48,829 nucleotides of DNA from Pigoraptor vietnamica (Eukaryota > Opisthokonta > Filasterea), in the NCBI GenBank assembly GCA_943704525.1, contig CALSCQ010002685.1:1-48829 (forward strand), in the 5' to 3' direction. Below the pieces are notes generated by a model. That model saw only the letters and a program-made list of their open reading frames with translations, did not search any database and was not told where the DNA came from. Position numbers and translations under genes: made by a program. Of this stretch, positions 5,546 to 31,988 are shown piece by piece (positions within the stretch are counted from its first letter, which is position 1; each line of letters begins with the position of its first letter).

Positions 5546-8500
5546 TCAGAGCTTCGACGCGGGTTTCCTCTCGCGGTACTTGGACAGCTCCGTAAGCGCC
5601 ACAGTCTGCGCATGCACCTCATCGGGTCCGTCCGCAAGCCGCAGCACGCGCGCCCACGTCCACAGCTGAGCGAGCGGCGTGTCCCCGCTGAGACCGAGCC
5701 CGCCATGCGCCTGCATCGCTCGATCAATCACCCGCGACGCCATCGCCGGCGCCACGACCTTGATCATCGCAATCTCCGCACGCGCGGCCTTGTTCCCGTG
5801 CGTGTCCATCAGCTCAGCGGCGCGGAGCGTGAGAAGGCGCGCCTGCTCAATGTCCAGACGCGACGCCGCAATGTCAGCCATGATCGTCCCCTGCTCCGCG
5901 AGGGGCTTGCCAAACGCCGTGCGCAAGAGCACGCGGCGGCACATGAGTTCGAGCGCGCGCTCGGCATGGCCGATGAGGCGCATGCAGTGGTGGATGCGGC
6001 CGGGTCCGAGGCGGCCCTGCGCAATCTCAAAGCTGCGCGATTGGGCTGCGCGGTCAGACATGTCGTTTGTGCGCTGCACTCGATGGACGGCAGTCACAAG
6101 GCCCGAAGATCTTGTGGAAATGGGCGTGGGCCACGCAACGCCAATCGTTCTGCAGGTCCCACTCACCCGCGGCCAAAGCCGAGCAGGATGTTCTCCGCGG
6201 GGACGCGCACGTTTTCAAAGAGGATCTCGGCGTGTCCGTGGGGCGCGTCGTCGAAGCCCATGACGGTCATCGGGCGCTTCACGGTGATGCCGGGCGTGTC
6301 CATCGGCACAAGCACCATCGAGTGCTGCCGGTGCCGGGGGGCGTCGGGGTCCGACTTGCCGAGGAAAATGGCCAGCTTGCAGCGAGGGTCCATGGCGCCT
6401 GTGCGGGAAGAGTCATGGTGCGATGTGAGCAGGTGTGCCGGGTGCGCGGAGAGATAGGAACATGGCAGGAAGCCCAAAGGGAAGCAATCGTCGCAGCCGA
6501 CAGCACGCAGCCCACACAACAGCGTCGCACACGCGCCCCTCGCAAACCGGCGATAACGTGCGAGTCACCCACCGGAGATCCAGTGCTTGTGGCCGTTAAT
6601 GACAATTTCGTCGCCCACTCGCTCAATACGCGAGGAAATGTTCGTCGCGTCCGACGACGCCACCGCCGGCTCCGTCATCGCGAAGCACGAGCGGATGCGC
6701 GCGTCGAGGAGCGGCTGCAGCCACTGCGCCTTCTGCTTCTCCGTGCCGTAGCGCACCAGAATCTGCGGAGCATTCATAGCATGCATGCCGACGAGTGAGA
6801 TGAGAGACGATAGGGCATTGCTGAAAGCAGCCGCGTAGAGATGTCGGACCAGCTAACATCGTAGACGGCAGTAAATCGACTAATCCACCGCGCAGAGAAA
6901 GAAAGCGCGGAGGCGTGCCACACACAAGGGAGCGCACAACAAGGCGCACACGGACGCACCTCCATGTTGCCGGTGTCCGGTGCGCTGCAGTTGAAGATCT
7001 CCGAGGAAAACAGCACGCGGCCCATGATCTCGCACAGGTGAGCGTACTCCCAGTTGCTCAGCCCAGCGCCGTACTTGCCGCCGTCCGTCTCCGCCGGGAG
7101 GAAGAGGTTCCACAGCCCCGCCGCCCGCGCCTTCTCCTTCAGGTTCTCGACGAGCGGGTGGATCGTCCACCGCGCGTCGCTGAGTGCGTGCGCCGCCATC
7201 GTCGCCTCCGCCTTGTAGACGTGGTCGTTCATGAACTGCAGCAGCTTCACGCGCAGCTCCTCCGCGCGCCCGGTGAGCTTGCGCGTGGGCGCATTGTGTG
7301 CCTCGATGGCGTGGTGCGACGTCGACTGCGCGTCCGTCTGCAGTGAAGCACCAGTGTCCTTCTGGATGCCCGCGAGCCGCACGGCAATCGCCGCCATTTC
7401 CTTGGCCATCGCTCCGACGGCCTGTGCGTTGGCGGCGCTCGCCTGTCCCTTGAGCGCGCGCTGGTACACGCCCTGCAGAATGGCGGCGACGCGGAAAAAC
7501 GAGAAGCCCATGTAGAAGTTCCACCCGCGCACGGGGCTGCGCTTGGCCAGGCGGCAGTACTCGGCGACATACTCTGGCTCGCTGGGGATGCCGAGTGCCG
7601 CAATGTCCTTTCCCGCCAGACCGCGGAGGCCGGGGAACTGCGGGCTGAGGTGGTACGGGAGGCAGTTGTACGACACGTCCGAGATGGGGTCGCCGAGCGT
7701 CGAGAGCTCCCAGTCGAGGACGGCGAGGACGCGGGGCTCGGTCGGGTGGAATATGAGGTTGTCCAGACGGAAGTCGCCATGGACAATCCCCGTGGGCCCC
7801 TCCGGAGGGACGTTCTTCGGCAGCCACTCCATGAGCTGCTCCATCGCGGGTATCTCCTCCGTCTGCGACGCGCGGTACTGCTGCGACCACCGCTGCACCT
7901 GCCGCACGGCGTAGTTCTCGCGGCGCCCGTAGTCCGTCAGCCCGATCGTGTCCGGATTGATCGAGTGGAGGTTGGCGAGGACGGCGCACATGGCCGCGTA
8001 GATGTCCGCGCGCTCCTTCGACGACATGCCGGGAATCGTCGGGTCCTTGAAGATGCGGCCGCGCACATAGTCCATCACGTAAAACGGCGTGCCCACAACC
8101 GACTCGTCCTCGCAGAGAATGTGCATCCGGGGCACGGGAAAGCCGGCCTGCGCGAGGGCGGCCATGACGCGGTACTCGCGCTCAATCGCGTGCGCAGACG
8201 GCAGCAGCTTGCCCGGCGGCTTCTTCCGCAGCACAAACTCGCGGCCGTTTGGCGCGCGGATGTGGAACGTGGGGTTGCTCTGGCCGTGCGCAAACTGGCG
8301 AACGGACAGCGGCCCCTGCCCGAGGTCGATCGTGCGGCTGAGGTACTGCCGCAGGGTCTCGACGTCAAACTGGTGTCCCTGGCGCACGAGCGTCGTCCCC
8401 TTCACGTAGCCCTTGAGCGGGAACCCGACGAGCCGCTCTAGCTTCTCGACGGCGATCGCGGGGTCCGTCACCTTGATCGCGAGCATCCCGAGGCTCGCGG

Positions 8501-9344
8501 CGGACTTGCAGTTCGTCCCAATGTCGTCGAGGTAGATGGCCTCGTTGGGGCGGATCCCGAGACGATCGCACGCGCGCTGGAAAATGCGCGGGTCCGGCTT
8601 GCGCAGCCCCTCCACGCACGACTCGACCACCTTGTCAAAGATGTCGGCGAGCCGGATCGACTCTCCCGTGTCCTTGCTCACCGTCCCAAACATGATGAGC
8701 CCGGCCGTGTCCTGCGGGGTCACCTTCCAGTTGTTCGTCAGCGCCGCCGTCTTGAGTCCCTCCGCGCGGATGCACTGAATCGCGTCGAGCATCTGCGGCG
8801 ATGGCTCGAGCGCGGCGTGTATGCCGGCAAACAGCTTGCGCGCGTCAATCTTGATGCCGCCGACGGTGTGGCACTCCTTCTCGAAGATGGCGAGGAACTC
8901 CTCGAGGGCCATTTCGCCCCTCTCCAGCCGCGAGAACGCGCCCGTCTCGCCGCCGGCGCGGATCACGCTGTTGATGGACCCCGGCTTAATGCCAGCCTCA
9001 ATTTCGTACGCGGCAATGGCACCGAAGGGAGAGCCGACAACAACGCCACCGAGATCTGCACGCAACGCAACGAAAGGTTAACGCGTTTGCAGGTGGGATC
9101 GACAATGCTGCCCACGCAATAATGGAAGCAAGACCCGAACAGCCACAACTCGCCCACCAAAGATGACGGCCTTGTACGGCGAACTCTCCGCCGACAGTCC
9201 GCGACGGGGCGCCATGGCAGCTTGTGGAAGGAGTCCGCGGCGCGTGTCTGCCGGGGAGATCCTCGATGCGCAGGCTGCCGGGGCGAGAGCGAGGGGAATC
9301 ACGGAGCGGAGGGTCCGTGAGGTGCCGAGGCGAAGCACGGACAT
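5546..9344 (-). CDS. ACAD10: ACAD10-like HAD / APH kinase-like / acyl-CoA dehydrogenase fusion
   Basis: Five exons: 9344-9158, 9055-6960, 6762-6573, 6398-6167 and 6032-5546, giving 1,063 residues. The N-terminus ([15 protein letters not shown] onward) is Arg-rich and lacks acidic residues, like a mitochondrial presequence. A HAD module follows: KAVIFDLGGVV, with the nucleophile Asp codon split by intron 1, then IYLDDIGTN. Next is an aminoglycoside-phosphotransferase-like domain with [11 protein letters not shown] and LDWE. The C-terminal acyl-CoA dehydrogenase shows [29 protein letters not shown] and [10 protein letters not shown]. The protein ends in SKL, a canonical peroxisomal PTS1. Human ACAD10 has the HAD and ACAD11 lacks it; this protein has the ACAD10 architecture. 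Family role: oxidation of 4-hydroxy or long-chain acyl substrates. Another in-frame ATG lies upstream at 9437. Confidence 0.93.
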
Positions 9345-14827: not shown

Positions 14828-17800
14828 GTACTGCTCGCTCATACCTATCACTCATACCCTCGGTTGTTAACGATGGCGGTGCAGGCGGACTACATTCGAG
14901 CGCTCTTCCAGACGCTCAACTCGAACGACGGCGACACGACGGCGGATCGTCGCGGGCGTCGCGCCGTCCACTTTGCAGCCGCGTGCGACGGCAGTGGCCC
15001 GCTCGAGTACCTCCTCTCCCGCAACAACGACCTCGGGAAGGCGGACCAGTCGGGCATCCTCCCGATTCACCTGTGCGCCAAGTGGGTTGTGGTCTATTCG
15101 GCGCGTGCAGTCTTATGTCATGGTATTACTTCACTCTCTTCTCTGTAAGGCAAGCAAGTCCCATTCATATCGCACCATCCCCTGCAGGCACGGCAAGGCG
15201 CACAACGTGCCCGTGTTTGCGCGCTTCTACGGCGGTTCGCTGGGCGCGATCACCAACGAGAAGGGCGGCCGCACGGCCTGCCACTACGCCGCACACTACG
15301 GCCAGGCTGAGACCCTCGCAGAGCTCATTCGGCACGGCGCCGCGTTCGATGCGGCCGACAAGGAGAAGAAGCTGACGCCGCTCATGGACGCCGCTCGCTC
15401 GGGCCACCTTGCGTGCGCGGAGGTCCTCGTCTCCGCCGGTGCCATTGTCACGGCGAAGGACAAGGCGCACCGCACGGCGCTTCACTACGCCGCGAAGAAC
15501 GGCCACACGTCGGTCGTCGTTTTCCTCCTCCGCGCTGGCGCCGACCCAAACGGCGTCGACTCGTCCGGCAACGGCGCGCTTCACTACGCCGCCGCGTTTG
15601 GGCACCTCGCGACGGTCGAGCTGCTGGTCACGTGGGGCCAGTGCCCCGCGGGCATGCTGAGTGCGTGGAAGACGTCGCCGCTGTCGATTGCGTTTATTAA
15701 GGGCCACATGCGTGTGGTGGACTTCCTCTTGAAGCAGCCCGACAGCCGCCTGGACCTGCGCGACACGGAGGGACGCTCCCTCGTGCACCACGCGCTGCTG
15801 GCGTGCGAGTCGCCCGCAACGAACGCCAGCGCAGAGGCCTCTGCGGCAACGAACGAGACCACCGTGCGCCAGATTGAGTTTCTCCTCTCACGCGGCGCGG
15901 CGCCGGGCGTCGCCGATTCGTCCGGCAGCACGCCTCTCCACATTCTCGCGCGCATCGTGCAACCGGAGACTGCGGGAAATGCCGGAAGCGCGCAGCCGGC
16001 GAACGAGCCTGACGATGCGTGGAAGCTGAGCGTCGCCTACATGCTGGTGAAGGCGGGCGCTCCCCTCGACGCGCTCGACGGCGAGGGTCGCACGCCCCTG
16101 ATGGTTGCGATCGGTGCAAAGAACCTCAAGCTCGCATCGTGGCTTGTGGGCCAGAGAGCTTCCCTAAAGGGAAGGGGAAGCGGCGCAAACGCCCTCCACG
16201 CGCTCGTCGCCGCGGGCGCTGCCTGCGATGTCGCTCCGCTGTGGGACGCCATGGGCAGCGGGGACCGTCAGGAGGAGTTGGCTGCGTGCGCGGCGTCCGT
16301 CGACAAGGAAGGCTTCACGCCCCTGCTGCGGCTGCTGTGCATTGCCGATCCTCCGACAGACGCGCAGGCCGGCGCGCGCGCGGGAGACAAGGCGAACGGA
16401 TCGTCGGCCACGCTCATGGATGCCACCAAACTCCACGCGCTCGTCGAGTCGATCGTTGCCAAGTGCAAACCGGACCTGAACGCCGCCGTGACGGCGGTGT
16501 CCGAAGCCGAAAAGGCGCCTGTGGCCGACGAGTCGCAGGCAGGACCGAGCGACGGCGGTGCGGCCGGGCCCATGGACGTCGACGGCGAGGCGCAGGGCGA
16601 CAAGGAGAAGCCGCTGCCCGAGCACGCCGGTCGCACCGCGCTCCACTTTGCGGCGTACCGCGCGGCCGGGGGACCCATTGTGCGCCTCCTGTGTGCGAGC
16701 GGGGCCGACGCGAACCGCATGGATGCGCGGGGCATCACGCCGATAGCGCAGGCGGTGGCGTCCGGTTCGGCCGCGAGTGTCGAGGCGCTGCTGCAAGCGG
16801 GCGCAGACCCGAACGGGTGCGTGTGTGGGCCGCACCGACGCACTCCGCTGATGATGGCGGCGACGAAGGGGCTGACGGCGACTGCCAAGTTGCTGCTGCG
16901 CGCCGGCGCCCTTCCCAACGCGACGGACGCGCGCGGGCAGACGGCGCTGATGCTGGCTGTGATTGAAGGACGGCGTAACAAGCGCCAGGGATTCGCCATC
17001 GAGCGTGCCATTGCTTCGATCGGTGGCGATGTCAACGCGCAGGACTCGGCCGGGTGCACGGCGCTCCACTACGCCCTGCGCGACTCGCCGTTTGAGGAGG
17101 ACGAGGGCGCGGCGAAGAAGCCGAAGACACCGAAGAAGGCGTACCCGGTACGCCGGTTCCAGGTGCACTCGGACGTTGCCCCGCCGGCGCCGACGGACGG
17201 CGCGAAGGCGGAGGACCCGATCGAGGCGGTCATTGACCTGTGTTCGCTCGAGGGCGTGCAGATGAACGTGCGCGACGGCAAGGGGCGCACGCCTCTCCAC
17301 TACGCTGCGCTCTGCGGCGCGATCATATCGACCATGTACCTGCTCCAGCGTGGGGCCGACGCCGACGCCCCGGATGCGCTCGGCAACGGCGCACTTCAAT
17401 TGGCGCTCTCCGCGGGCCACACGAGCTACGCCGCCGTCCTCATCAACAAGGGGGCGGACGTGCTGCGTGACGTCACGGTCGAGCCTGGGGAGGCGGACGC
17501 CGGCGCTGCACCGGAGACGCTCTCGACGTTCAAGTTTGTCGTGTCGCGCGACATGATGGGGATATGCTATCTGCTGATGGACCTCGGCGTCGACCTGCTA
17601 CGCGCCGCCGGGGACGCGCTCGACTGCGCCAAGTTCCAGGCCGTCGCCACCATGCTTGACAAGCGCCCGGCGGCTGCCGCGCGCGCGGTCGACGCCGACG
17701 GCCGCACCCTCTTCCACATTCTGGCAGCATGCCGCTTTCGCAGGCCGGGGCAGGACCCGCGGATTGCGCGCGAGTTTGCCGAGACTTTCGCGCCGCTGCT

Positions 17801-20585
17801 GTGGGCTTCGCTCGAGGAGCGTGGAGTCGACGTGTTGCTTAAAGACAAGCGCGGCCGCACTGCGCTGCACCTGGCCGCCGCCGGAGGGTACGCGGAGCTG
17901 TGCGACTACTTCATCGGCCGCGGTCTCTCCGTTGCCGACGAGGATGCCGACGGTCTCACGCCGCTCGCCCACGCGCTTTCTTCCGCGGAAGAGACGAACG
18001 CGGCCGTCAAGCTACTTGTCGCGAAGGGCGCCAAGGTCAACGCGCTGGGACGCCTGTCGCCGCCCGCGCTGCTCCTCGCCGTGCGGAAGGGCGACATGGC
18101 CACGCTGAAGGACCTCGCCGCGGCAGGAGCGGACCCGAACATACGCAGCCCCGTCGACGGCCGCACTGCGCTCATGGAGGCGGCGTCGCTCTGCCGCCGG
18201 GATGCCGTCCAGGAACTGCAGGAGCTCTGCGTCGGCCCTCGCGCCCTGGATCCCCATGCGGTGGACGCTGCGGGAAGGACGGCGCTGCACTGGCTCGTCA
18301 AGGGCAGTGGCGGACTGTACACGTTTGAAGACACGGAGCTCCTCGGGACGCTTGTCGCGCTTGGCGTGCCCATCGACCTCGGGGACGCGTCCGGCAGCAC
18401 GCCGTGCGACTACGCGCGCGAGCAGGCGAGTGGGCGTATGCTTGCCGCCCTCCGTGAGCTGGGCGCAAAGGATGCGCAGCCGCTTCCCGCGGAGGTCATC
18501 GCGCAGCGCATGCGAGAGCAGGACGCCGCTCGCTTTGCTGCAGCGCCGGCGTTTGACGAGGTCGACGCCGTCGCCGACAGCCGCGCGGAGAGGGCCAAGC
18601 AAGACGCCGAGCGACTGGAGGAGTATCGGAAGAGCCGCGCGGCCGCGGGGACGCACGGCAGCACCGTGGATCCCGTGTCCGGACTGCAAGTGACCGGGAA
18701 GGTGGTGAACGGCGCCGACGGCGGTGCGCTGGACCTCACGCTGCACAAGGTCGATGTGCGGGCGGGTTACCACGGGCAGAACGACTTTTACCGGATGCAG
18801 GTCATCCACGTGACCACGCAGGACCTGTACATTCTGTGGACGCGGTGGGGCCGCGTGGGCGAGACGGGCATGCACCAGCGCACGCCCTTTGCGACCGCCG
18901 CCGAGGCAGAGGCCGAGTTCTGCAAGGTGTTCAAGTCGAAGAGCGGCAACGTGTGGCAGTCGCGGAACGCCTTCGAGCCGAAGGACGGCAAGTACGTGCT
19001 CGTGCCCACGTCGGAGATGGCGGACGCCGCCGCGGCCGCCAACGCAAGCGGGGACGGACCCATGCGCAAGTTTGGCGCCAAGGCGGTGGCGCTGCCAACG
19101 GCGCTCGATCCACGCGTCGTCACTCTCATGCGCGTGGCGAGTGACCACAAGGCGCTGCTGCAGGCCACGCGGCGCGAGCGGCCTCTCGTGCTCGGCGGCG
19201 TCACGGAGGAGCAGATCGCGGAGGCATTTGGCGTACTGAGGGACATTTCTGAGCTCGTGGCCCAGTGCGACGCGGCCGACGGCGCGCTTGACCTTGCGGG
19301 GATCACCGCGTGCCGCGAACGAATGGCGGAGCTTGGGCAGCGCTTCTACTCGCTGATAAGGCACGACGCGTGGGAGCTTGGGTCGCAGTGGACACGGCAG
19401 CGCGTGGCGGACAAGGCCGCGATGCTGACGCGCATCAGGTGCGTCGCCGTCTGCGTGTGCACCGTCCGAAGCATCCTTCCTAGGACGCATCTGTGTTCGT
19501 TTGTGTGTGCCGTCTGTGTGCGCGCAGTCCTATGTCTGTCTGTTTGTTTCCCCCTCTCAAACCATGCGTTGCCGCACGCAGCGATCTCCAAGCCGGCATA
19601 AAGATGCACCTGGCGGCGCAGTTCCGCTCGACGGAGGTGAATCCCTTCGAATACTGCTACCGCTGCCTCGGCGCAGACATCATCGCCCTCGACAAGGACA
19701 GCAGCGAGCGCGCCCTCGTGCAAAAGTGAGTTTGCGTTATACTTCTTGTGCCCACCGGCGCTTTGTTCCAACCGCGTGCTTCCAATGACTGTACTCATTC
19801 TGTCTTCCCAGGTATTTCGATACGTCTGTCGGGGACAATTCGAACCTTGAGATTGCCGACGTCTTTGCGGTGCGTCGTCGCGGCGAAGTCGAGCGATTTG
19901 CGAAGCACGCGACCCTTCCGAACCAAATGTTGCTGTGGCACGGCTCGCCCGTGACGAACACGCTCGGGCTGCTCTCGGAGGGCGTGTGCATTGCCCCGCC
20001 CAACGTTCCCCTTGCGGGCGCCATGTTCGGATCGGTGGGTTGCCCTGTGGCCTCTGCGAATGTCACGTGGTCCTTGCTGTGAGTTGCAGCAGCAAACTGC
20101 CTCGCTCGTGCTTGATGTGCATTGTGCCTGACGTGCCTGTCTCATGTGTCGCGCAGGGCATCTATTTCGCCGACATGTTCGCAAAGAGCTCCGGCTACAT
20201 GCGCGTGGGGATGGTCGGCGGCAGCCATGAGACGCAGGCGCACGGCCTCGCCCTTCTCTGCCGCGTCGCACTCGGCGACATGGTCGAACTAACGGAGGCC
20301 ACGGGCCCTGCGCCGGCCCACGACGGCCGCACGTCCACGAAGGGGATTGGCACCGTCCGTCCCAACCCGCGCAACGCCGTCGTTACGGTGGCGGACGGCG
20401 TTACAGTGCCGCTGGGTCCGCCACTGGAGACGGAACGGCCGACGACGGGGATGCCCGCGTGGCGCGCGCTCAACTACAACGAGTACGTCGTGTACGACCA
20501 GTCACGCGTGCTTATACGCTACGCAGTGTTGCTGCGCACGAAAGGGTACCGACCCAAGACGAAGAGGAAGGGCGCTGCCGTGTGA
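13058..20585 (+). CDS. Ankyrin-repeat, WGR-domain poly(ADP-ribose) polymerase
   Basis: Seven exons: 13058-14299, 14448-14648, 14885-15081, 15188-19438, 19582-19725, 19812-20034 and 20157-20585. Phases close at 2,228 residues. The N-terminus (1-220) is basic with several NLS-like clusters (GKRKRARREE, PPKRRARASSKGKG). An ankyrin-repeat array follows to about residue 1660, with repeated units such as GRTALHFAA and GADPN. A WGR domain (ILWTRWGRVGETG, about 1720-1830), a PARP regulatory helical domain and the catalytic domain follow. The H-Y-E triad looks intact: His2055 in LWHGS, Tyr2089 in GIYFAD and Glu2195 in NEYVVYD. This predicts a polymer-forming enzyme. The order ANK-WGR-PRD-PARP and the length recall nematode PME-5 rather than animal tankyrase, which has SAM and no WGR. 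Likely nuclear. Confidence 0.95.
14729..14826. repeat. (CA)n microsatellite in PARP intron
   Basis: About 95 bases of CA dinucleotides inside the PARP intron between 14648 and 14885, upstream of the acceptor. Confidence 0.95.
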
Positions 20586-27613: not shown

Positions 27614-27970
27614 CTAGTACTCCCAAGCCGAACCGCGGCGCGCGGCAAACTTCTTGCGCTGCGCGTTGTTGACCTCCTCCTCGAGCTTCATGGCCGTCAG
27701 CTCACGCTCGAGCTCGGGGGCCGTCGCAGCACCGGCGCCACCCGCCGCCTTCTCCTGGCTGCGGATGCGCACGGCCGCGTCCACGGCCGACGCGAGGTTG
27801 TCGGCGGCCTGGTGCACGGAGCGCGAGGCAACCTCGACGTCGTGCTGAGAGTCCGAGCTCACGGCCTCCTGGACCTGGGACGCGATGACCTGCACCGCAA
27901 CACACCGACGAATGTCAGCCCATGGCAACAAAGACCAAAAGAGGGGGGGGGGGGGGGGGGGNNNNNNNNN

Positions 27971-28043
<73 letters not shown>

Positions 28044-31000
28044 GGAAAAAAAGAGCACGTCTAAGACGAGAGATCGCTTGCACTCCATTGCTGCACATCA
28101 AGCGCGCACTCACCAGGTCGGCGGCCGACGAGGCGACGTCCTGCGCGGCCTGCACGAGCGCGGCGACATCCTCCTCGCCGTTGCTGACATTGTCGGCCGT
28201 GAGCACGAGGGTCGCCACCGTCGCGCTGAGGTCCGTCGCGCTCTTCGCGAGGCCCTCCGACCACGACTTGTCCTTGCGCAGGTGCTCTGCGTTCGCGGCG
28301 TGGAACGCCTGGCCGAGAAGGCCGAGCTCGTTGACGCGGCGGCGCGCGTGGCCGATGAGGTTCGAGACGGCGTTGACGATCGGGAGCATCGTGTCGAGGA
28401 CGGTCGTCTGGCCAGGGAGGATCGGCTGGTTGACAATGATCGAGCGGCGGCGAGGCTTGTTGCGCGAGTCGATGAGGCTCTTGCGGACGAGGTCCACCTT
28501 CCGCTTGGCGCTCGCGAGCTTCGCGTCGGCATCGGCGTACTGCTTCGACAGCTCTGCGGGCGCACACACGAGGAACGTGCGTGAGAAAAAAAGCAGGCGC
28601 ACTTGTGCACGTCCGAGCACATAGAGGTAGCTGCTGCTTACCAGAAGAGTGGTCCGACACGGTCGGCGCGGGCGCGGCGGCACCAGCGCGCGCCTGGATA
28701 AAGTCCTCGAACGAGTCGCGGCGCGCAGGCTCCGCCTTGATGCGCGCGAGGGCCTCGGGAACGGCCTGGGGCCTGGTCGACGGCAAAGAGCAATATTATG
28801 GATGCGTTAGCTATGGTGTGTGCACGCCAAACTTAAACTGGCAGCAGACCAAGCCGCATGTGTCATTCACGAAGTAACTGTGTGCAAAGACCAGACACGG
28901 AAATGCACGGGCACGTACTTGGCGGCGGCGGCAGCGGGGGAGGCCCAGTGCTGCTTGAGGTGGTGCGTGATGCCGAGAATGGCGCGCATCGACTCGACAA
29001 CAGCCGACCCGGCGACCTCGAGGTGGTGGCGGTTCTCCGCCGAGGGCTCGATGATCGTCGCCTTGGCCACGTTGAGGAGGTTGATGCTCGTCTGGCCGAC
29101 GGCCTTGAGGAGAGCAATCACCTGCAGGCGCAGAGAGGGGAAGTAAGCAAGCGCCCGTCAAAGCAAGGCACGCGGCGCCATACACACGCGCACGTGGCAA
29201 TGTACCAGCGCACGTGGCCATGTACCAGCGCACGTGGCAATGTACCAGCGCACATGGCAATGTACCAGCGCACATGGCAATGTACCAGCGCCACACATCC
29301 CCTCATCAAAGTGATCTACTATCATCCCCACATATACAGTCACCGACGATTCACTGCGAGCCCCACCTGCTTGCGCTGCTCGGGATCCGAGATGGCAATG
29401 ACGACGTTCTGGCCCGACCCAATGACCTTCGGGATGGCCGCCTCATAGTTGCGCGCGGCTTGCGCAAGCTGCACAAATTTGATACTTGCGTCAACAGACG
29501 AGCCCTTCACAGACAAGACCACACACACAGCGGCAAGCAACGGCACGCACCTGGCTCATGGCCGTGGGGCCCAGCGCAGCCTGTCCGACCGCCTTGAAAG
29601 CCTCCGACAGCGCCTGCGCGTGGAAGTGGAGCGCGTCGACGGCGGGCGCAAGGTCGCCCTTCACAGGCATGCGGAAGGTCGAGTCCAGGTGCGACGTGCA
29701 CGTGGCAATCGTGTCGCAGCTGTACACGCACTCGCGGGGACCGGGCAGCGCGTTGATGAGCGCGGGGAAGGCCTGCGAGAGGTACTCGCCCAGCGAGGCA
29801 AGCTCAGAGCGGCGCTCGACGGACGGGGCCGTGGCGTGCGCCTTGGCCGACTCGAGCATGAGCGCGGCCTTGGTGAGAATGTCGTGGACAGAGTTGAACA
29901 GGTCCTGCTGGGGCGTGTCGTCCGTCACAGCCTTGGCAATCGCCACGGCCGTGTCCGCGAGGGAACGCAGGGCGCCCACGCACGCAATGGCGCTCGCCGT
30001 GAGGACGGCGGCCGTCTGCGGGTCGTTGGTGCGCAGTTGGCTCGCGTCGGCGAGGAGGCGGCCAATGGCACCGCCCGCTTGCTTCGTGCTGAGCACAAAG
30101 CGAGGGACATCGGTGCCAACGCCGTCCGAAGACGCCGTCGGGAACATGTCCAACTGGCCGTTCGCCGCGAGCGACTGGGCGCGGAGCAGCTCGCGGTCCA
30201 CGCCGCGGATGGCCGCAACGGCCGCGTCAATGCTGTTCGGCTCGCCCACGGAGCCGTGGCCGGGCGCGGGGACGAGCGCCGGCTGCGTCGGGAGGGGGTC
30301 CGAATCAAAGTCGATGAGGAGGTCGACCTCGGGTTCCTTGTGGGCGGCGGGCGCGGCCGACTGCGACTGCGACTCGGAGCGCGGCTTCGTCTCCTTGGGC
30401 ACGGGCTCTGCAAACAAAGAGAGAGAGAGATCAGCAAACGCTGCCTCGACCCCTAATCCCCTGGGCAAACGCATGCGATGAAGGCATTGCAAACAGACTC
30501 AAACGAGCACAACTGGCATACTCACTCGGGGGCTCGGGGTACGACACCGTGAAGGGGATCTTCGTGATGAGATCCGCGCCCATAGCGACGACAGCGTGCA
30601 CGTTGAGGTAGTACGAAATCGTGACGCCAGAGCCCTCGTCATTCCGCGAGTGCGTGAGGCGCGTGGACGCAGCGAGGCGCGAGGCGTCGGCCATGTTGAG
30701 CTTCATCTCCTGCGCAACGTGGTGCGTCTCCTGCGCCATCACCTTCGGCACGACGCTGCAGGCGAGTAACTCGTGAGTAACACACCCATCCAGCAACCGC
30801 ACGAGAGACCCGTGAGAGTGGGCGCACACGAAAGCCGCAAGCAGTGAATCACGTACCTGTACGAATAGATGAATGTGTCGTGCTTCTTGATCGGGCATCC
30901 GCGCGTCGACTCGAGCAGGGCGACCTGCGACAAATACAAATCAGCCATCGCGCTCTCCGCCATAATGAGCAGCAGAAGGACGTGACAAGAGCGGCCCTCA

Positions 31001-31988
31001 CCTGGCTCTTGAGCTTCTCCTTCTTGTTGCCGATGCGGATCTCGGCAATCTGCTTGACGGACACCTTGATCGCGTACACCTCCTTCTTGCTCATGTTCTC
31101 AATGTCCACCTTGACGACAATGGGCTCGCCGTGCGTGAACACGTCCTTCTCGAGGCTCGCGCGCAGGCGCAGCGGGCGCTGAGAGTCAAACATGAACGAC
31201 TTGGTGTTCTCCGCCGCCGGCGCGGGCATGTCCTTGACGAGAGGGATGAAGTTGACCTTCTGGAAGGGAAGGTTCACGACGCTCGACTTGGAGCCGAGGC
31301 TGCCGCTCATGAGGTACGCGCTCACGGTCCACGTGATGCCAATCTGGTGGCCCTCGTAGTACATCTCGGGCTTGAGAATCACCGACGCGGGCGAGTTGTG
31401 GGGAAGCGTGACGAGGAACGGAAAGCACTTGTCGCCGATCTTCTTCATCAGCGCGCGCTGGGCGCCATTGGGCTGGCACTCCTCCGACGCCGACGGGTAC
31501 AGCGTCAGCACGCGCTCATAGAGCGTCTCGCGGTGGATCTCCCAGTCCTGATCCTCGAAAATGTAGTCGCAGGTCACGCGCGCATAGAGCACTGCGTCGC
31601 GGCAATGTTCGGTGAGCACTTTTGCGCGTTTGTGTCGTGCTGAAACTGGGGAAAGCCAAACAAAAAGAAAAACACAAATATAAAAGAACCCACCCTTGCC
31701 CTCCAGGGAGGCGGGGTCGTTGATCTTCACGACACCCTCGATGGGCTCGACGGTCTGGTTGGGGAAGTCGTAGATGGTCCGGCTCCCTACATACAACAAT
31801 TGCGCACGAGCATTAGAGACAAGGGAATCACGTGTACATATGAACAGTCCCTCGCAAAAAAGAAAAAAAAAAATAAGAGGAGGGGAAGTCGTCCTGCAAG
31901 CGACCACAGGGCACAGTCGCCCACCGAGGTAGAGGCCGACGATCTTGTCCTTGGAATTGCGAAAGCTGAACGTCCGCGTCGTCGCCAT
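27614..31988 (-). CDS. Beta-arrestin fused to a talin/HIP1R-type I/LWEQ region
   Basis: Eleven exons: 31988-31925, 31786-31694, 31591-31002, 30924-30857, 30755-30526, 30407-29551, 29468-29367, 29121-28919, 28772-28642, 28553-28114 and 27889-27614. Phases close across all junctions at 1,017 residues. Residues 1-348 form a full two-lobe beta-arrestin: VEPIEGVVKINDP, LYARVTCDYIFEDQDWEI, KCFPFLVTLPHNSP, SLEKDVFTHGEPIVVKVD, VTISYYLNVHAVV, PFTVSYPEPP. A linker follows with LIDFD (379-383), matching the clathrin box LxxF/L[D/E], as beta-arrestins have LIELD or LIEFD. Residues about 400-780 are Ala-rich helices like talin/vinculin bundles. Residues about 780-1017 match I/LWEQ (THATCH): SWSEGLAKSA, AAQDVASSAADL, RSVHQAADNL and a final helix ending RRGSAWEY. 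Predicted role: receptor adaptor that could bind clathrin and F-actin. The fusion is not known to me. Confidence 0.9.
27944..28040. repeat. Poly(G), 9-base gap and (GA)n tract
   Basis: A run of G, then N at 27962-27970, then about 70 bases of (AG)n. All lie in the last intron of the arrestin fusion, so the coding sequence is not affected. The N run marks an unresolved assembly gap of uncertain true length. Confidence 0.95.
29186..29290. repeat. 20-bp minisatellite, five copies
   Basis: Five head-to-tail units of cacgtggcaatgtaccagcg, the later ones with cacatggc instead of cacgtggc. They lie in the intron between arrestin-fusion exons 7 and 8. Confidence 0.9.
30304..30318 (-). other. Clathrin-box-like motif LIDFD
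   Basis: This codes for residues 379-383 of the arrestin fusion, in an acidic, Pro-rich linker (EPEVDLLIDFDSDPLP). It fits the L-hydrophobic-x-hydrophobic-acidic clathrin-box consensus and sits where beta-arrestins carry LIELD or LIEFD. Confidence 0.7.

Follow-up and report, generated by a model that had tools for sequence, protein, structure and literature searches.

Animal beta-arrestin carries its clathrin and AP2 motifs together in one short tail, and the Sla2/HIP1R proteins carry an ANTH domain and a coiled coil. Beta-arrestin, ARH and epsin share the beta2-appendage motif [DE]nX1-2FXX[FL]XXXR, and the AP2 peptide of beta-arrestin begins at residue 383 (PMC5694535; papers are cited here on the strength of the excerpts available). 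A stretch of 48,829 nucleotides from the filasterean Pigoraptor vietnamica (assembly GCA_943704525.1, contig CALSCQ010002685.1, positions 1 to 48,829 of the forward strand, hereafter the window) contains a gene at 31988-27614, on the minus strand, that joins an arrestin to a talin-type rod. The encoded protein begins with a two-lobe beta-arrestin, which a linker joins to two bundles resembling talin R5-R6; a second linker leads on to an I/LWEQ bundle, and a helix ends the chain. This arrestin-talin rod architecture can be regarded as established, with near certainty.

Like beta-arrestin, the fusion has a two-lobe head (33% identity to beta-arrestin-1 over 347 aligned columns), a basic site for phosphatidylinositol 4,5-bisphosphate (PIP2), and matches to a clathrin box and an AP2 motif C-terminal to the head. 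Unlike beta-arrestin, it has R169 replaced by Gln and D26 by Thr, its two motifs are split by talin-type bundles rather than placed together in a short tail, and about 670 extra residues follow the arrestin lobes. The fusion shares with talin an R5-R6-like pair of five-helix bundles, an I/LWEQ bundle and a C-terminal helix, in the same order, but no FERM family was found in a Pfam scan of the protein, most rod bundles are absent and the Lys-Val-Lys (KVK) triplet is lost. It differs from Sla2/HIP1R in having an arrestin, linkers and talin-like bundles, and in an I/LWEQ bundle that falls outside the Sla2/HIP1R group; the same Pfam scan found no ANTH family. A BAR-SH3 protein of the same genome (contig C464) likewise combines a membrane-type head with a talin-like rod and I/LWEQ, but there BAR and SH3 replace the arrestin, and the I/LWEQ bundle lies on the talin/Sla2 side of the split.

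Four families exceed their Pfam cut-offs: Arrestin_N (residues 20-147, E 7.8e-10), Arrestin_C (residues 190-342, E 1.5e-13), Talin_IBS2B (three stretches, the best at residues 406-572 with E 8.4e-18) and I_LWEQ (residues 872-1011, E 1.1e-17). Against solved structures, residues 4-361 match beta-arrestin-1 with E 1.8e-47. The head is closest to beta and visual arrestins among the matches listed, which are the best 60 of 74 PDB sequence matches and, by Foldseek, the best 50 of 636, these 50 all being arrestins. The helical part matches residues 1047-1350 of talin-1, or R5-R6 by the names that PDB entries 2l7n and 2l10 bear, and matches beyond these bundles are to talin R13, SLA2 and HIP12; talin and THATCH fold matches were also found for the rod part. 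A structure model was built on four sequences, P0001 and three homologues, as a proxy for the P. vietnamica protein. Its mean predicted local distance difference test score (pLDDT) is 58.9 and its predicted template modelling score 0.34, with parts of the arrestin and both linkers below 50, and its contacts were not used.

The first-pass annotation of this DNA had described a full two-lobe beta-arrestin (residues 1-348) and a C-terminal I/LWEQ domain, and the Pfam matches bear out both; the segments SWSEGLAKSA and RSVHQAADNL that it had named are present. The Ala-rich helical bundles that it placed between them are also there, and the sequence and fold matches refine them to an R5-R6-like pair. 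Its suggestion that an arrestin here stands in for the ANTH domain of a Sla2-like protein is too simple, because the rod outside I/LWEQ matches talin R5-R6. A Sla2/HIP1R origin of the whole tail was rejected for the bundles, since no significant match outside I/LWEQ was found to the Sla2-type protein of the same genome, a comparison that covered its 419-residue frame and not the remainder of that gene. The annotation had further proposed a search of other protists for the same domain pair, and five co-linear homologues were found.

These homologues align with the P. vietnamica protein from the arrestin through the C-terminal helix. P0001 (EukProt 'Opistho-2', the clone name of Pigoraptor chileana; PMC7147346) is 85% identical, P0002 is Capsaspora CAOG_02203 (42%), and P0003 (39%) bears the Nk52 gene prefix of Chromosphaera perkinsii (PMC6981761). 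P0004 (28%) and P0005, listed at 33% to P0003, are of metagenome source. The I/LWEQ match of P0004 lies under the curated cut-off (23.8 versus 27.5 bits). This protein has 1090 residues and its longest contig 3369 bases, so that the contig, going by these lengths and not by inspection of its sequence, would be almost entirely one uninterrupted frame, like complementary DNA. The arrestin heads of the six family members group apart from the canonical ones sampled (support 97/97 in a tree of 8 rows), as do their I/LWEQ ends (100/98 in a tree of 12 rows). The trees have few rows, P0004 and the canonical arrestin form long branches, and the program warned of long branches meeting in the I/LWEQ tree; the separate grouping of both ends fits a single origin of the fusion. 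Each protein search scored about 8000 candidates sharing most words, and one listing missed P0004. Therefore, the homologue set is a lower bound, and absence from animals, choanoflagellates or other holozoans does not follow from it. The protein is, on sequence evidence, an arrestin-talin rod fusion and putative adaptor conserved in unicellular holozoans. Its presence in Filasterea and Ichthyosporea places its origin before animals, barring transfer between lineages.

The head departs from canonical arrestins at the polar core, which comprises D26, R169, D290, D297 and R393 of the tail. Gln163 of the P. vietnamica protein (31260..31262, minus strand) aligns with Arg169 of beta-arrestin-1, and this polar-core arginine is Gln in five of the six fusions. 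D26 is Thr or Val in all five fusions that cover the position (P0005 does not), with Thr in P. vietnamica, and R165 is lost in all six; the canonical arrestin of the same genome keeps both R165 and R169. The alignment of the gate-loop columns D290 and D297 is ambiguous, and no claim is drawn from them. Binding to unphosphorylated receptor invariably increased when the homologous arginine of arrestin-1 was neutralised or reversed, charge reversal was likewise effective in arrestin-2 and -3, and the arginine itself makes no contact with receptor phosphates in solved complexes (review PMC7913897). By analogy, the change from R169 to Gln is expected to pre-activate the head. The positions of the beta-arrestin PIP2 site, K232/R236/K250 (PMC10686989), are K/R, K and K in 6/6 fusions versus R, E and H in the canonical arrestin of the same genome. 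Together, these residues suggest a head that would be seated on the membrane and would depend less on receptor phosphorylation.

Both linkers carry matches to endocytic motifs. In the first, LIDFD (residues 379-383; 30304..30318, minus strand) matches a clathrin box; the Capsaspora form is LINFD, and one or the other stands at this position in 4/6 family members. In the second, RRDSFEDFIQAR (residues 753-764; 28688..28723, minus strand) fits the beta2-appendage pattern, in summary form DSFEDFIQAR, with an RRxS site in front. An AP2-type motif is found at the same place in four of the six proteins, and P0004 contains a further match at another site. A slightly wider pattern gives an expectation of 0.01-0.07 such motifs per shuffled protein (five proteins shuffled). 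The element is also an island of conservation, in which the homologues are 50-83% identical to P. vietnamica, versus 11-56% over the next 18 residues and 17-63% over the preceding 30. Three sites of the RRxS basophilic kinase type, RRDS, RRRS and RRGS, lie at residues 753, 814 and 1010; by pattern, RRDS is present in 5/6 family members, RRxS near 814 in four and the C-terminal RRGS in four. The RRDS serine could conceivably be a kinase switch, its phosphorylation providing the acidic lead of the AP2 motif, although this is a guess. Where the others carry the clathrin box, exact or varied, P0004 has at residues 366-400 a stretch that resembles UBA (Pfam E 0.058, under the cut-off).

The favoured reading, to which a probability of roughly one half is assigned, is that the protein would be a phosphorylation-independent clathrin/AP2 cargo adaptor in which a pre-activated arrestin is mounted on a talin-type rod. 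The head would sit on PIP2-rich plasma membrane by way of three conserved basic residues and would bind cargo tails with little or no receptor phosphorylation, given that the polar-core arginine is glutamine. Clathrin would be engaged through the box in the first linker and AP2 through the beta2-appendage motif in the second, which phosphorylation of the RRDSF serine may gate. The two talin-type bundles, the I/LWEQ bundle and the C-terminal helix would form a long, probably dimeric, spacer and scaffold. Since the standard actin-contact triplet is missing, any connection to actin would be a weak one, or would be made by another surface or by partners.

Several observations weigh against this adaptor. 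The clathrin-box position reads LIDLS in P0005 and holds no clathrin box in P0004, and 0.6-1.0 matches are expected per shuffled protein (five proteins shuffled); because chance matches are so frequent, the case for the box rests on its position and conservation. In Capsaspora the AP2 motif departs from the pattern by one, in P0005 it is reduced and lacks the acidic lead, and its helix in the P0001 model has an unusably low pLDDT of about 30. The same model, with only four sequences underlying it, allows no judgement of packing or autoinhibition. P0004 retains R169. Among K11, R25, K107 and K294, basic positions linked to receptor phosphates, K294 is lost in all six fusions, while K11 is basic in 5/5 covering rows, R25 in 5/5, and K107 is kept in 5/6, which leaves room for phosphate binding by the head. 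For one receptor, a study found that clustering did not require the clathrin and AP2 elements of the beta-arrestin tail (PMC9681205).

The first-pass annotation had proposed that a working I/LWEQ domain ties activated receptors directly to F-actin, in analogy to Sla2/HIP1R. The endocytic part of that idea is strengthened by the candidate clathrin-box and AP2 motifs, but direct coupling to F-actin is unsupported as stated and is considered unlikely. Gln-Val-Gln (residues 931-933; 27869..27877, minus strand) stands at the Lys-Val-Lys position of talin and HIP1R. The triplet is QVQ in the P. vietnamica protein and three homologues, LVQ in P0005 and KNA in P0004, such that KVK is replaced in all six fusions, whereas five of six comparison I/LWEQ proteins (talin-1, HIP12, yeast SLA2, and the talin and Sla2-type protein of this genome) have K/R-V-K. 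From just before the triplet to the end of the bundle, net charge is -6 to 0 in the six fusions versus +1 to +5 in the six comparison proteins, leaving this segment neutral to strongly acidic in every fusion. Over helices 2 to 5 the values are -10 to +1 (the +1 being P0003) versus +1 to +4, and from the conserved Trp to the triplet the two sets overlap. The I/LWEQ fold is kept while its known actin-contact triplet is lost, and direct binding of F-actin is doubtful, given the replaced KVK and the positive charge lost nearby. Two points soften this case. The sixth comparison protein, the BAR-SH3 protein, also lacks KVK, having ATK, and mutation of KVK to DDD in talin cuts actin binding in vitro by 40-73% without abolishing it (PMC11075885). 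As for kinship to Sla2, BLASTP bit scores of the I/LWEQ ends against Sla2 and talin are 65.5/62.0, 67.4/58.5, 57.0/40.8 and 55.1/53.5, higher for Sla2 in all four fusions that matched (P0004 gave no match and P0001 was not included). The tree, however, places the fusions with neither talin nor Sla2/HIP1R, and they split off from the Sla2/HIP1R (THATCH) group at 100/98.

The rod might instead make the protein a scaffold of adhesions or the cortex, in which the R5-R6-like bundles bind talin partners or vinculin-like proteins, the arrestin head sets the location and endocytosis is secondary. The bundles are talin-like in sequence and fold, and the genome encodes a talin with FERM and rod parts, but both linkers hold endocytic motif matches and no vinculin-binding-site family was matched in the Pfam scan of the fusion; this reading is rated as improbable.

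It is most improbable that the gene model joins two adjacent genes, and such an error was rejected: the P. vietnamica gene is known here from genomic sequence alone, but the identical domain order occurs in five database proteins, three of them from named genera, and phases close at all exon junctions. The earlier description of a single gene of eleven exons with closing phases is borne out by splicing, which yields one open frame of 1017 codons plus a stop, with GT-AG at all ten introns. On the minus strand, exon 1 (31925..31988) holds the start codon, whose Met aligns with that of P0001, and arrestin residues 1-21. Exon 2 (31694..31786) encodes N-lobe, exon 3 (31002..31591) N-lobe and the start of the C-lobe (Arrestin_N 20-147, Arrestin_C from 190), exon 4 (30857..30924) C-lobe, and exon 5 (30526..30755) the end of the C-lobe, to residue 348. 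Exon 6 (29551..30407) encodes residues 349-634, with the clathrin-box linker and then most of the R5-R6-like bundles; exon 7 (29367..29468) continues the R6-like bundle, and exon 8 (28919..29121) ends it (residues 669-735). Exon 9 (28642..28772) encodes the second linker with its conserved AP2-type element, exon 10 (28114..28553) residues 780-926 with the first helices of the I/LWEQ bundle, and exon 11 (27614..27889) the bundle end, a C-terminal helix resembling a dimerisation helix, and the stop codon. Because the arrestin lobes end in exon 5, and the first linker, clathrin-box match and most of the bundles all lie in exon 6, the head-rod connection depends on the junction of these two exons (30526/30407). 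Two of the gene's introns contain repeats: a short tandem repeat of about five copies by eye at window positions ~29180-29290, and, at ~27940-28040, a CT microsatellite with an N gap and then a C run after it, a weak spot of the assembly that is non-coding.

The same genome encodes related proteins separately. Contig C420 has a canonical arrestin that terminates at a stop codon of its own behind an arrestin-type tail, in which DDLIDFGD and EFSEFVKER roughly match, by eye, the clathrin-box and AP2 patterns. Contig C232 carries the talin with FERM and rod parts. Contig C1312 carries the Sla2-type protein, so named because its I/LWEQ end has HIP12 as best PDB match and because of where that end falls in the tree, with an ANTH part seen by eye only. 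In the BAR-SH3 gene (C464; L019:3752-6536), BAR, SH3, talin rod segment and I/LWEQ lie in two overlapping frames that meet inside SH3, the second SH3 part being below cut-off. Exon-wise searches of the genome, which comprises 32.5 Mb in 1395 contigs, found no second copy of the arrestin-talin gene, one clear further arrestin (that of C420) and one weak match (C1012, E 0.0115). As the separate arrestin, talin, Sla2-type and BAR-SH3 proteins coexist with it, the fusion is an extra, dedicated protein.

Elsewhere in the window, a long open frame at 14871-19598 (plus strand) has ankyrin repeats, a WGR domain and a PARP regulatory domain. Another at 6777-9077 (minus strand) has HAD hydrolase and APH phosphotransferase domains, a pairing also seen in the front part of animal ACAD11.

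The architecture had been flagged as undescribed, and no description of an arrestin-talin fusion was found in the searchable literature on Capsaspora or Pigoraptor arrestin, on arrestin with talin, or on I/LWEQ, a scope outside which supplements and most subscription papers fall. No mention was found in the available text of PMC3307776, PMC12716839, PMC4824007 and PMC6912373, nor by a term search of PMC12686525; the available text of PMC9492541, on gene fusions in general, contains neither 'arrestin' nor 'talin'. Capsaspora is stated to encode two arrestin-like proteins in PMC3307776, which in its available part says no more on arrestins, and no paper naming CAOG_02203 was found in the searchable literature.

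In lineages whose branches lie just outside animals, the fusion unites receptor endocytosis and a talin rod within a single conserved protein, and it coexists with a normal arrestin in the same cell. On current trees, the common ancestor of filastereans and ichthyosporeans was also ancestral to animals. It is possible, if doubtful, that this ancestor had a pre-activated, phosphorylation-independent arrestin within a dimeric talin-type rod, a receptor adaptor whose single chain both recruited clathrin/AP2 and served as a mechanical or cortical scaffold, and which was later lost by animals, where separate arrestin, talin and HIP1R are used. Capsaspora carries the fusion gene and can be transfected. 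The natural change of the R169Q type makes it possible to test whether canonical arrestins are specialised in depending strictly on phosphorylation, and the QVQ I/LWEQ end whether this fold serves uses other than actin binding.

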